NCBI RefSeq assembly: GCF_000151205.2
Contig: NC_016051.1
Span: 310,001-374,000, forward strand
From: Thermococcus sp. AM4
GTDB taxonomy: Archaea; Methanobacteriota_B; Thermococci; Thermococcales; Thermococcaceae
DNA: 64,000 nt
Direction: 5' to 3'
This document shows, piece after piece, positions 6,466 through 10,257 of this stretch (position 1 is its first letter; each line of letters starts with the position of its first letter). The notes under the pieces are model-generated. The model searched no databases. It had not been told where the DNA came from and was given only the letters and a program-made list of their open reading frames with translations. The position numbers and the translations under genes are program-made.

Positions 6466-6552
6466 TTTGCACTCGCACTGCAAACTCTTTTTAAATTCCT
6501 TTGCAGTAGAAATGCAAAATCTTTATAAACATCTTTGCACTACAACTGCACA
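6466..6552 (+). repeat. Tandem 34-bp operator/promoter repeat ahead of ATPase gene
   Basis: Three palindromes of the form TTTGCA-N7-TGCAAA begin at 6466, 6500 and 6534, exactly 34 bp apart; the third is TTTGCA-N7-TGCACA. The intervening 15 bases are also repeated, CTCTTTTTAAATTCC and ATCTTTATAAACATC, each containing a TATA-like core. So the whole unit of palindrome plus TATA box is duplicated. The final palindrome runs into the ATG at 6552, whose A is its last base. This is best read as an autoregulatory operator array on a leaderless gene. There are no unique spacers, so it is not a CRISPR array. Confidence 0.75.
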
Positions 6553-7709
6553 TGCTTGAGATACAGAACCCGTGGTGGTTTGGCGAATCTGACAGAGACT
6601 GGGAGCTCTTCGAAAAGCTCACCTATAAGGTCAGGCCGAAATGGCTCGACGAACTCTCATTGGAGCCTTTTTCGCTCAACTTCGTCGTCGGACCGAGAAG
6701 GGTCGGGAAAACCATCGGAATAAAGCTTCTCATTAAAGAGCTCCTCAAAAAAGTCAGTACTCCCTATGCCGTCTTTTACTTCAGCTGTGACGTGCTTGAG
6801 GACTACAAAGAGCTTTTGGAGGTTCTAAACGAGTACCTCCAACTGAAGAGACGAAAAAACATTAAAAAAGCTTTCATATTCCTCGATGAGGTTAGCTTAG
6901 TTGAGGACTGGTGGCGTGCCCTGAAGTTCCTCATAGACAGGGGCGAGCTGAGGAACGATGTCGTCACCGTAACGGGCTCGATTTCCCTTGCTCTTGGACG
7001 GCACTTTGAGACGTTTGGGGGCAGGCGGGGGAAGGGAAAGACCGTCGAGGTCATGCCGCTGAGCTTCCGCGATTATTACCAGCTCTTTTACGAGGACTTC
7101 TTTCCGTTGAAGGGGAACGAGGTCTTCGAGAACTACCTTGAAACCGGCGGCTATTTGGCCTATCTAAACGGCACCCTTAAGGTTGAGGAGCTCGTGGGCT
7201 TCCTGAAGGCGGACCTGAAAGCTTTAGAGCGCTCGACCGACCTCGCGAGGGACGTCATGGGCGCTATACTCGATAAAGCGCCATCACCGACTTCCTTCAA
7301 CGCGATAGCGAAGGCCGTCGGGGTTTCGCCCCACACCGCGAGGGATTACGTTGAGCTCTTCGAGGCGCTTCACGTCCTCCTGCAGGTTCTCTACCTCGGA
7401 GGCGATGGGAAGGTCTATCCGCGGAAGGAAAGAAAGCTGATTCTCCGTGACCCGTTAATCGTGAGGGCCATGGAGCTCTGGACGAGGAGAAAGGTTGATA
7501 GGGCCGCTCTCTACGAGTGGCTCGTTCAGGAGCACCTGCACCGGAAGTTCGGGGAGGTTTACTACTACCGGAACTCCTACGAGGTCGATGCAATCGCTGG
7601 AAACCTGAAGGTCGAGGTGAAGTCGGGGGAGAGAAGGGGAAGGTACCCGAAGGACGTTAAAGTCCTGAAGGGCCCGGAGGTTCCGGGATTCCTTTACGAC
7701 CTCACTTAG
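6552..7709 (+). CDS. Archaeal AAA-type ATPase with C-terminal PD-(D/E)XK-like domain (AAA_14/DUF4143 type)
   Basis: A 385-residue protein. Walker A is GPRRVGKTIG (residues ~51-60), Walker B KAFIFLDEVSLVEDW (~110), followed by a TGS sensor (VTVTGSIS). A winged-helix-like stretch (SPTSFNAIAKAVGVSPHTARDYVELFEAL) lies near 240-268. The C-terminus has EVDAIAGNLKVEVKSG, with an acidic residue then E-x-K as in PD-(D/E)XK nuclease folds, to which the DUF4143 region is related. Substrate and role are unknown; members are scattered, lineage-variable genes in archaea. The gene is preceded by a three-fold operator array and is probably leaderless. It converges on, and overlaps by 8 bp, the unknown gene at 7702-8583. 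Confidence 0.8.
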   Translation: MLEIQNPWWFGESDRDWELFEKLTYKVRPKWLDELSLEPFSLNFVVGPRRVGKTIGIKLLIKELLKKVSTPYAVFYFSCDVLEDYKELLEVLNEYLQLKRRKNIKKAFIFLDEVSLVEDWWRALKFLIDRGELRNDVVTVTGSISLALGRHFETFGGRRGKGKTVEVMPLSFRDYYQLFYEDFFPLKGNEVFENYLETGGYLAYLNGTLKVEELVGFLKADLKALERSTDLARDVMGAILDKAPSPTSFNAIAKAVGVSPHTARDYVELFEALHVLLQVLYLGGDGKVYPRKERKLILRDPLIVRAMELWTRRKVDRAALYEWLVQEHLHRKFGEVYYYRNSYEVDAIAGNLKVEVKSGERRGRYPKDVKVLKGPEVPGFLYDLT

Positions 7710-8583
7710 CGAACTCCCTTATCCCCTCCACGTCCCTCCGCTGAACCAGCCTGAGGAGCTTAACCGTGTAGGCTATCTCAAGCGCGTTCTCCTCAGGGTT
7801 TTCGAGGAGTTCGTCAAGTCGATTGAGCAGGTCTCCCTCCGCCCGCTTCATGGCCTCGCCCGAGAACCCCGCGTATTCGAGGGCCTTTGCTATGGTGATG
7901 AGCTCAGTGAAGACTTTCGTTCCCTTCTCCTCCGGAATCCCTGCCTTTCTGAGTTCCTCCTCGACGGCTTTCTTCGTTTCGGGGAAGGTTGGTTTCGCCG
8001 GTTCTTGTGACGGTCTGACTGCCGCAGATGGAATTGCTGCTCGCGTCGCTGTGGTGCTTCTCGGTTTCGCTCCGTACTCTTCCCCGAAAAGTGTGTCCAA
8101 GTACTTGTTAAGTTTTTCCAAGTTTTTATACTCCTCCGTCTCTATCCAGTTCCTTCCTTCGGGTCCCAAGTACTTTACCAGTTCTTCGACCGCTTCCATT
8201 GCAAGAGGGAGATACTTGGTGAGTATGCGGCTCTTCTTTATCCAGATGTTGTGGCTGTCGACGAATCCCGTTACGAACCTTTTTCGGAACTCCGGATCCT
8301 TCAGCTTCTCGTACTTTGGGAGGATGTATCCCTCATAAGGGAGCAAGTTCTTTGGCAGTTCTATTTCACCTGCTATTTCCTTCACGTTTTCCTTGTGGTA
8401 GTATGCGACCTCCTCCTCCGCGAGATTCTTCAACAGGTGTTCCTGCCGCTTCCCGAGCTCCTTCCATCTTCTTATTTTGTTTTCCATTGCCGGCAGGATG
8501 CTCAGCAGCTGGAGGAGGAGCGTCCAGCGCTGGGCGTCCTCCTTCGTGGGGGCGATGTACTTCGCGTGCTCCTCGCTTATCAA
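7702..8583 (-). CDS. Hypothetical helical protein with Ala/Thr/Pro linker
   Basis: A 293-residue protein that I do not recognise. It is mostly alpha-helical by composition (many E, K, L), with an N-terminal part to about residue 175, a low-complexity linker rich in Ala, Thr, Pro and Ser (about 176-205), and a helical C-terminal part. No signal peptide or membrane segment. The only available start is a TTG at 8583 with a GGTGG two or three bases before it, which is poor spacing. Just upstream, the same strand holds further coding-like sequence in other frames (see 8584-8846), so this may be the 3' part of a larger decayed gene. Confidence 0.5.
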   Translation of the reverse strand: MISEEHAKYIAPTKEDAQRWTLLLQLLSILPAMENKIRRWKELGKRQEHLLKNLAEEEVAYYHKENVKEIAGEIELPKNLLPYEGYILPKYEKLKDPEFRKRFVTGFVDSHNIWIKKSRILTKYLPLAMEAVEELVKYLGPEGRNWIETEEYKNLEKLNKYLDTLFGEEYGAKPRSTTATRAAIPSAAVRPSQEPAKPTFPETKKAVEEELRKAGIPEEKGTKVFTELITIAKALEYAGFSGEAMKRAEGDLLNRLDELLENPEENALEIAYTVKLLRLVQRRDVEGIREFAK

Positions 8584-8846
8584 TCCACCGAAGTAGTTAT
8601 GTGTGTGTTATGGCGTTCACCAGTGCATCATGCCTCACGTCGGCACTGGCGTCCTTCGGCCCGGGTACCTCTCCGTAGCGCCTTATGATATGCTTTTTTA
8701 ATGTAGCATTGTGCCTATGTAGTGTGTGTGTTATCGAGGGAGTCCACCACCACGATCTCCCTCGATGTAGGCTTGATTCCCTCGAACTTTTTATGCTTCT
8801 TGCCCGTCCGGGCATAGACGTATCGGACTACCAAGGAAACCACCCC
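8584..8846 (-). pseudogene. Coding-like remnant upstream of the hypothetical gene, broken at CA-repeat tracts
   Basis: On the minus strand, fragments in different frames read like protein: one includes TGKKHKKFEGIKPTSREIVV and ends after an AACACACAC tract; another includes GEVPGPKDASADVRHDALVN and ends ITHT-stop after a second CACACACA tract. In the next frame the reading continues NYFGGLISEEH into the gene at 8583. The tracts lie at about 8601-8611 and 8722-8734 (plus-strand GTGTGTGTTAT at both). I read this as one gene broken by frameshifts at dinucleotide repeats, but cannot prove a common protein. CCAGTGC and GCACTGG also form a short inverted repeat here. Confidence 0.4.
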
Positions 8847-10208
8847 TCAATCTTCGCCCTTGGAAGAGATAAGCCTTTCGAAGTCCTTCAAGTCCCAGAT
8901 CAAAAATCCTTCTTCTCTCAGATCCTCTTTCCCCTCAACGTTCTTCGCCACAAGCCCGTAGCGTTTCTCCCAGTCATCAAGTCCCACCAGCCCAGCCTTC
9001 CGTTCCAAGTCCTTCAAAACGCCCCGCGCTTCCCTCTCGCTCAGGCTCTTCCACTTCACCTCAACAAAGAGCGCTTTCCTCTCGCGTTCGTTCAAAGCAA
9101 CCAAATCAATCTCCTCGCCCTTACGCCACCACCTGCCGATTTTTGTAAAGCGGAACGGCAGCTTTCCAGCTTTATTGAGTTCGACGAGGAAATGCCGAGC
9201 AACTTTCTCAAACACCGGGCCAAGGTAATGGTCGTAGTCTCGCTTGATCTCCTCAACGTCAAAGATGCCCTCCTCGATGGCCGAAAGGTTTGGATAGACG
9301 AAGCGGAACCAGAAGGCGAGGAAGTTGTCGGCCACGTAGTAGCGACCCCTCTTTGAGCTCGGCTTTTCCGTTATCGGGACTTCCCTCACCACCAGCCCAG
9401 TTTCGATGAGGTTTCTCAGGTAGGGCGTTACATCCGAGTGTCTCATGCCGATAAAGTCCCTTATCTCCTTTGGCGTCGTTTTGCCCAAGGCTATTGCCTC
9501 CAGTATGCGCCGGTAGGTTCTCGTCTCCGTAAACTCGTACCTAAGCAGAAAATCAACCTCGTCGCGGAAGAAGCTCACCGGGTTCCTCAGCTCATTATTG
9601 AGCCACTCCCAGAAGGGCAACCTAACCTGCGTTATGTAGAACGGAATTCCATCGGTCATGCCGTAGACTTCTACGAGTTCCTTCCAGTCGGCATCAGGGA
9701 AGAACTCCCTCAGATGGAGAAATTTCAAGGGCTTGAGCTTCATTGAGCCTGTTCTCCTGCCGTAAAGAGGGCTCTTGTAGCTGAGAACTTTCTCCGTCAT
9801 CATGCTCACGGAGGAGCCGAGGAGAATGAGTTTTGTGTTCGAATCTGAAAGTTCCGTGTCAATAGCCCTCTGAAAAACGCTCAAAACGGTGGGGTCTTCC
9901 TTTATGATGTTAGGGAACTCGTCGATGACAATAACCTTTCCCCTGAGGGCGTGGAGAAGGCCCTCCCAGTCTCCCCGGGCGTATCTCACCTCCGGAAAAA
10001 CTCTCTCAGCAGTCCCCCGGAAGTGCCTCAGGTTACCCCCCTCGACGGCGAGGTAGTAAACGTGGGGAACGTCTTTCACGGCTTCGAGGACGAGACGGGT
10101 CTTCCCAACACGCCTTCTCCCATAGATGATGATTAGCTCGAAATTCTCGCTTGAGAGCCGTTCTCTCAGTGCCTTAAGCTCCTCATTTCTATTTACGAAC
10201 TTGGTCAT
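8847..10208 (-). CDS. Archaeal P-loop ATPase with C-terminal PD-(D/E)XK-like domain (PF01637/DUF234 type)
   Basis: A 453-residue protein. Walker A is YGRRRVGKTRLV (~residues 29-40), Walker B KVIVIDEFPNI (~92-102), sensor ILLGSSVSMM. A winged-helix region follows (TTPKEIRDFIGMRHSDVTPYLRNLIETG), and the C-terminus holds GEEIDLVALNERERKALFVEVKW: ExD then E-x-K, the PD-(D/E)XK pattern of the DUF234 region. It is a different subfamily from the ATPase at 6552, though the architecture is parallel. The ATG at 10208 directly abuts a palindromic operator arm, with a TATA box about 35 bases upstream, so the leader is very short and no Shine-Dalgarno is present. Biological role unknown. Confidence 0.8.
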   Translation of the reverse strand: MTKFVNRNEELKALRERLSSENFELIIIYGRRRVGKTRLVLEAVKDVPHVYYLAVEGGNLRHFRGTAERVFPEVRYARGDWEGLLHALRGKVIVIDEFPNIIKEDPTVLSVFQRAIDTELSDSNTKLILLGSSVSMMTEKVLSYKSPLYGRRTGSMKLKPLKFLHLREFFPDADWKELVEVYGMTDGIPFYITQVRLPFWEWLNNELRNPVSFFRDEVDFLLRYEFTETRTYRRILEAIALGKTTPKEIRDFIGMRHSDVTPYLRNLIETGLVVREVPITEKPSSKRGRYYVADNFLAFWFRFVYPNLSAIEEGIFDVEEIKRDYDHYLGPVFEKVARHFLVELNKAGKLPFRFTKIGRWWRKGEEIDLVALNERERKALFVEVKWKSLSEREARGVLKDLERKAGLVGLDDWEKRYGLVAKNVEGKEDLREEGFLIWDLKDFERLISSKGED

Positions 10209-10243
10209 GTGATAATCACCGTTATGATAATGGTGATTATCAC
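10209..10243 (-). promoter_or_regulatory. Operator: paired palindromes between TATA and start of ATPase gene
   Basis: GTGATAATCACC (10209-10220) and GGTGATTATCAC (10232-10243) are perfect inverted copies separated by 11 bases. Each arm is itself nearly palindromic (GTGAT-A/T-ATCAC), and the spacer holds a third partial copy (ATGATAAT). The minus-strand order is TATA-like CTTAAAG (10243-10249), arm, spacer, arm, ATG. Binding here would cover the whole initiation region. The motif differs from the TTTGCA/TGCAAA sites of the other ATPase. Confidence 0.75.
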
Positions 10244-10257
10244 TTTAAGCCTTTCGC

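Follow-up and report, generated by a model that had tools for sequence, protein, structure and literature searches.

Palindromic operators at two archaeal ATPase–nuclease genes differ in step with the encoded winged helices and suggest self-repression

We analyzed a 64,000-nt window of the Thermococcus sp. AM4 genome in which two genes for putative antiviral proteins, A and B, together with a third open reading frame, ORF C, lie between the genes for deoxyhypusine synthase and tiaS. In other species these genes are missing from the site, in agreement with a first-pass annotation that had placed A and B in one accessory island. The features of the locus, in window coordinates, are:

6466..6484, + strand: operator A palindrome P1 (TTTGCACTCGCACTGCAAA), 86 nt before the ATG
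6500..6518, + strand: operator A palindrome P2 (TTTGCAGTAGAAATGCAAA), immediately preceding the TATA box, in the BRE region
6522..6529, + strand: TATA box TTTATAAA of gene A, flanked by P2 and P3, from sequence and conserved in orthologues
6534..6552, + strand: operator A palindrome P3 (TTTGCACTACAACTGCACA), between TATA box and ATG
6552..7709, + strand: gene A, P-loop ATPase (AAA_14), winged helix and DUF4143/PD-(D/E)XK-type tail; PADLOC PDC-S01
7329..7367, + strand: predicted recognition helix of the A winged helix, residues 260-272 (AlphaFold2 model and alignment)
7581..7622, + strand: PD-(D/E)XK-type motif of A (E344, D346 ... E355, V356, K357)
7702..8583, − strand: ORF C, 293 aa, oriented towards A within the accessory island
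8847..10208, − strand: gene B, P-loop ATPase (ATPase_2), winged helix and DUF234/PD-(D/E)XK-type tail; PADLOC PDC-S27
9054..9113, − strand: PD-(D/E)XK-type motif of B (E366, I367, D368 ... E383, K385)
9399..9440, − strand: predicted recognition helix of the B winged helix, residues 257-270 (AlphaFold2 model and alignment)
10209..10243, − strand: operator B, 35-bp palindrome GTGATAATCACC...GGTGATTATCAC, abutting the start codon of B
10244..10249, − strand: TATA-like element of gene B, CTTAAA, just outside the palindrome, with the same layout in orthologues

The common three-part plan first suggested for the two proteins is borne out by AlphaFold models (pLDDT 91.5 for A and 92.3 for B), each with a P-loop ATPase, a winged helix and a tail, and by alignments of 26 homologues in which the PD-(D/E)XK-type residues are invariant or nearly so in A (E344, D346, E355, V356 and K357) and invariant in B (E366-I367-D368, E383 and K385). 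Pfam assigns AAA_14 and DUF4143 to A and ATPase_2 and DUF234 to B, with a MarR_2 match to the winged helix of the latter. A matched the PADLOC PDC-S01 profile at 6e-31 over residues 40-350, and B the PDC-S27 profile at 2.4e-40; both are unvalidated candidate systems, and A and B are putative antiviral proteins. A Foldseek search with the B model returned 2qen and 2fna as the nearest structures, followed by Orc1/Cdc6 and NLR-type ATPases, and the A model resembles DNA-bound Orc1/Cdc6. The two proteins had been described as unrelated. Profile-profile comparison aligned them across the ATPase, the winged helix and the nuclease motif with a probability of 98.3%, and they are therefore distant homologues instead. 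ORF C matched no Pfam or NCBIfam family.

As first described, three TTTGCA-N7-TGCAAA palindromes precede gene A. Those at 6466-6484 and 6500-6518 are exact, while the third, at 6534-6552, carries one mismatch (TGCACA) and ends on the A of the ATG. They are set around the TATA box with an exact 34-bp period (start-to-start spacings of 34 and 34), and a second, weaker TATA-like stretch lies between P1 and P2. Allowing up to two mismatches, the motif matched five times in the window, compared to 1.07 matches expected, and no shuffle reached five; a whole-genome pattern search (2.09 Mb) found the exact motif at the gene A promoter only. P3 is expected to lie over the transcription start and, because of the TATA spacing, the mRNA of gene A is probably leaderless.

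Operator B is placed between CTTAAA and the ATG at 10208. Its arms (10209-10225 and 10227-10243) are 17 nt each with 1 nt between them and are 94% complementary overall; the outer 12-mers (GTGATAATCACC/GGTGATTATCAC) match perfectly. At both genes the last palindrome touches the ATG, and no Shine-Dalgarno sequence is visible before either.

We examined the conservation of both promoters in 94 Thermococcaceae genomes, where A has about 20-21 close orthologues (73-94% identical to the window copy) and B about 25-28 (about 70-88%). The A palindromes are kept in practically all orthologues whose promoter can be read, and the B palindrome in nearly all orthologues. P2 lies at -52 in 17/17 A orthologues measured and P3 at -18 in 16 of the 17, while P1 shifts by 1-2 nt (-85 to -87) and is lost in some. 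The half-sites of both operators keep a fixed distance to the ATG, whereas the A N7 spacers and other flanks diverge, which is the pattern expected of protein binding sites. Over the 94 genomes, exact A sites cluster at A promoters, compared to 7 sites for a reversed control pattern. The palindromes at A and B are real, non-chance features conserved by selection, and no member of either orthologue set with a readable promoter combined a conserved winged helix with a lack of palindromes. In some B orthologues (L043, L044, L045, L046 and L058), a second, degenerate operator copy is found about 50-85 nt before the ATG.

A family search identified about 36 such ATPases in the organism's own genome. 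By eye, most of them have their own palindrome between TATA box and start, with differing sequences. A blind palindrome score of at least 10 was reached by 13 of 37 ATPase promoters and by a single promoter among 450 controls (Mann-Whitney P = 7e-13); in a wider frame, the counts were 16/36 and 5/449 (P = 3e-16). Compared to shuffled sequence, 20 of the 37 fell at P ≤ 0.05, as did 7 of 150 controls, and about half of the members are therefore individually non-significant. Members 868812, 1277849, 1870300 and 403577 are among those with no clear palindrome, their start codons being uncertain, and the replication factor C large subunit, caught by the same search, has none. The few high-scoring control promoters include that of a TrmB-like regulator gene; such regulators are a class with known self-regulation.

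Paralogue subfamilies share one promoter layout and differ in their palindromes. Among about 160 homologues of the two families, the A family contains at least six further operator classes, and the B family at least six or seven, placed right after the TATA box; in both families each class is conserved within its subfamily across genera. A-family half-sites (TTTGCA, TTGTAAAGT, CTTGCCGAAC, TGAGAACT, TTGAAAGT and TTGGTAAT) are set around CTTTATAAA. In two B subfamilies (L206-L217; L236, L239, L263 and L265), one palindrome arm lies inside codons 2-5, so that operator and coding sequence are constrained together.

Each operator had been proposed to be private to its gene. We searched for A across the whole genome, and for the others in 0.86 Mb (about 40% of the genome) plus the ATPase loci, and within this scope most operators tested match their own gene only. 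The claim holds to that extent, but the privacy is that of a subfamily, since B shares its operator with B' (643308), a truncated copy of B. The B' gene (G000:C1:642367-643308; L068, L317) is 86% identical to B over residues 1-314 and has lost the nuclease tail while keeping the operator.

If the encoded protein reads the operator, the two should vary together, and the first-pass annotation had proposed looking for covariation of palindromes and winged helix across homologues. We found it in the roughly 160 homologues: operator classes are constant within paralogue subfamilies and different between them, and the recognition helix differs in step. Operator similarity correlated best with winged-helix identity, both in the B family (r = 0.77, partial 0.36) and in the A family (r = 0.73, partial 0.28), although part of this correlation is descent because promoters are inherited with their genes, and the permutation P-values remove common descent only partly. 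With the other segments controlled, the nuclease domain gave partial correlations of 0.05 for B and -0.27 for A; the identity of the ATPase segment also correlates with the operator (partial 0.25 for A). When pairs above 65% identity were removed, the winged helix was the only segment with appreciable positive weight (0.29 vs 0.05 and 0.08 for B; 0.25 vs 0.04 and -0.26 for A).

Individual comparisons agree with these weights. Pairs with similar nucleases (0.67) and different winged helices (0.39) have an operator similarity of 0.48, compared to a baseline of 0.46, while pairs alike in the winged helix and less so in the nuclease keep similar operators. In the neighbouring paralogues 1290343 and 1288951, identity is 76% for the nuclease segment and 38% for the winged helix, and their operators are unrelated; conversely, the recognition helices of the A3 and A4 subfamilies are 82% identical and their half-sites nearly the same. 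Operator class thus goes with the winged helix, not with the nuclease.

We tested the breadth of the design beyond the Thermococcaceae on plasmid records. A B homologue (61% identical) encoded on a Methanocaldococcus jannaschii plasmid shares its operator with B, and six haloarchaeal plasmid homologues carry AAGTCATTATCGNAGTAATCATTA or a close variant before the ATG. Homologues from Rhodothermus, Mesorhizobium and Cetobacterium have strong individual palindromes, which abut the ATG in Rhodothermus and Mesorhizobium. In this small sample, 16 of the 27 plasmid cases are non-significant. The AAA_14 homologues on bacterial plasmids have weak palindromes (1/7 at P ≤ 0.05), and generality in bacteria is therefore claimed for some DUF234 homologues only; the bacterial plasmid genes thus show the one-gene-one-operator design in part. 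In a phylum-wide DUF234 search, none of the ten genomes of the class outside the Thermococcaceae had a homologue, and phage records yielded no relative of A and only weak relatives of B.

Taken with the promoter layouts, these results make it probable that each protein represses itself through its own operator. A and B belong to a large superfamily that joins ATPase, winged helix and nuclease in the product of a single gene. The same polypeptide would read, as a dimer and via its winged helix, the palindromes that bracket or cover the TATA box and the expected start of its promoter. The bound protein would block TBP/TFB or RNA polymerase and so keep a potentially harmful nuclease at a low level, until ATP or a ligand controls its release from the operator. 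As recognition helix and palindrome change together, the roughly three dozen paralogues per genome could be repressed independently. The survival of solo operators in genomes that lack the matching protein counts against self-repression.

Alternatively, the palindromes could be operators of separate, trans-acting winged-helix regulators of the TrmB/Tgr type, and the ATPases would not bind them. Thermococcales Tgr/TrmBL1 palindromes do occur at the same place (TATCAC-N5-GTGATA; PMC4158304), and the B motif is superficially similar. The spacing, however, misfits this glycolytic motif: operator B reads TGATAAT-N4-ATTATCA...TGATTATCA, with a TATCA-to-TGAT spacing of 6 and not 7. Such a mechanism would also need as many regulators as there are operators, and each would have to accompany one ATPase subfamily from genus to genus and onto a Methanocaldococcus plasmid, whereas operator class follows the ATPase's own winged helix. 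Because no second site was found for most of the tested operators within the searched sequence, there would be no regulon for such regulators to control. We consider this mechanism unlikely.

The protein might instead activate its own promoter. Activation is conceivable because P1 and P2 of A precede both the expected start and the TATA box, which in Thermococcales is an activator's position (PMC4158304). P3 and all of operator B, however, lie downstream of TATA and over the expected start, where a repressor would sit, and the layout across the B family is almost exclusively downstream of TATA. Positive autoregulation is accordingly quite unlikely.

A further mechanism would treat the palindromes as working targets, either replication-initiator iterons or the cleavage or insertion sites of a selfish element, with their overlap with the promoter secondary. 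The Orc1/Cdc6-like fold, known bound to origin DNA, the regular, iteron-like spacing of the A sites and the deletion endpoints located at operators in other species all fit such a role. It is nevertheless highly improbable: the copies number about 36 per genome and are dispersed over the chromosome, no neighbouring origin or element ends were seen, and the sites are locked to TATA box and ATG. Moreover, the empty sites hold remnants of A or C, which fits loss and does not fit insertion.

That the palindromes act as RNA hairpins limiting translation is barely credible, even though the B palindrome and P3 of A touch the start codon and some B subfamilies have one arm in codons 2-5, because two of the three A sites precede the TATA box and are therefore untranscribed, half-site letters are conserved with no compensated drift, and leaders are very short or absent.

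Self-repression by a winged-helix protein has precedents. AbiEi of the AbiE defence locus represses its own promoter via inverted repeats (PMC3985639), a mechanistic parallel to what we propose. AbiEi, however, is a separate antitoxin that has neither ATPase nor nuclease, while here a single polypeptide serves as both reader and presumed effector, and the operator differs from paralogue to paralogue. Tgr binds palindromes over BRE/TATA or the start site through a winged helix, and its autoregulation has been proposed (PMC4158304); it is a regulon-wide sugar regulator with no nuclease, whereas the operators described here are at single genes. The archaeal STAND ATPases SSO1545 (2fna) and PABY2304 (2qen) are the closest solved folds to B, and the mycobacterial regulator IniR, whose ATPase domain has been likened to SSO1545, binds a promoter (PMC5760070). 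IniR differs in its DNA-binding domain and acts on iniBAC (PMC5760070). We found no report of a self-operator for SSO1545, PABY2304 or IniR.

The available portion of the account of PDC-S01 describes an ATPase fused to a PD-(D/E)XK domain that is abundant in archaea and ranks fourth in frequency among the candidate defence systems of prokaryotes (PMC12988326). It covers the distribution and phylogeny of PDC-S01 and PDC-S27, which match A and B, with validation pending, and that portion mentions neither palindromes nor self-regulation. No report of these operators was found in the open-access literature on DUF234, DUF4143, PDC-S27 and palindromes. A built-in operator would be the first testable handle on PDC-S01: it marks the promoter, predicts self-repression and the pairing of proteins with their DNA sites, and gives a direct way to assay the release signal. 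The winged-helix/operator pairs would form a large natural set for studying how DNA specificity evolves, and could serve as orthogonal gene switches for thermophiles. Tentatively, a rule may extend to the whole superfamily of putative defence nucleases, whereby sensor ATPase, operator reader and nuclease are combined in one chain and each paralogue has an orthogonal operator. Dozens of self-repressing modules, insulated from one another, would in that case coexist in one archaeal genome.

Traces of gene loss at the island site take several forms. In G062 (L300:569-632), P1 and P2 of A are fused via 8 bp to operator B, and A, C and B are gone. The same 8-bp junction is present in G036 (L303:1090-1159) and G014 (L304:1044-1113), and the endpoints of the scar, at window positions 6518 and 10210, are identical in these three species; the common scar has outlived speciation. 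G044 (L301) has lost A and B and kept the operators and the 3' part of ORF C, while an internal deletion in G049 (L302) has left a C-terminal remnant of A. Both, together with G079 (L306), carry A operators with no intact A beside the deoxyhypusine synthase gene. Retention of operators is over-represented among these cases because the matches came from a motif search. Operators that remain after gene loss may act like immunity sites that silence a re-entering copy.
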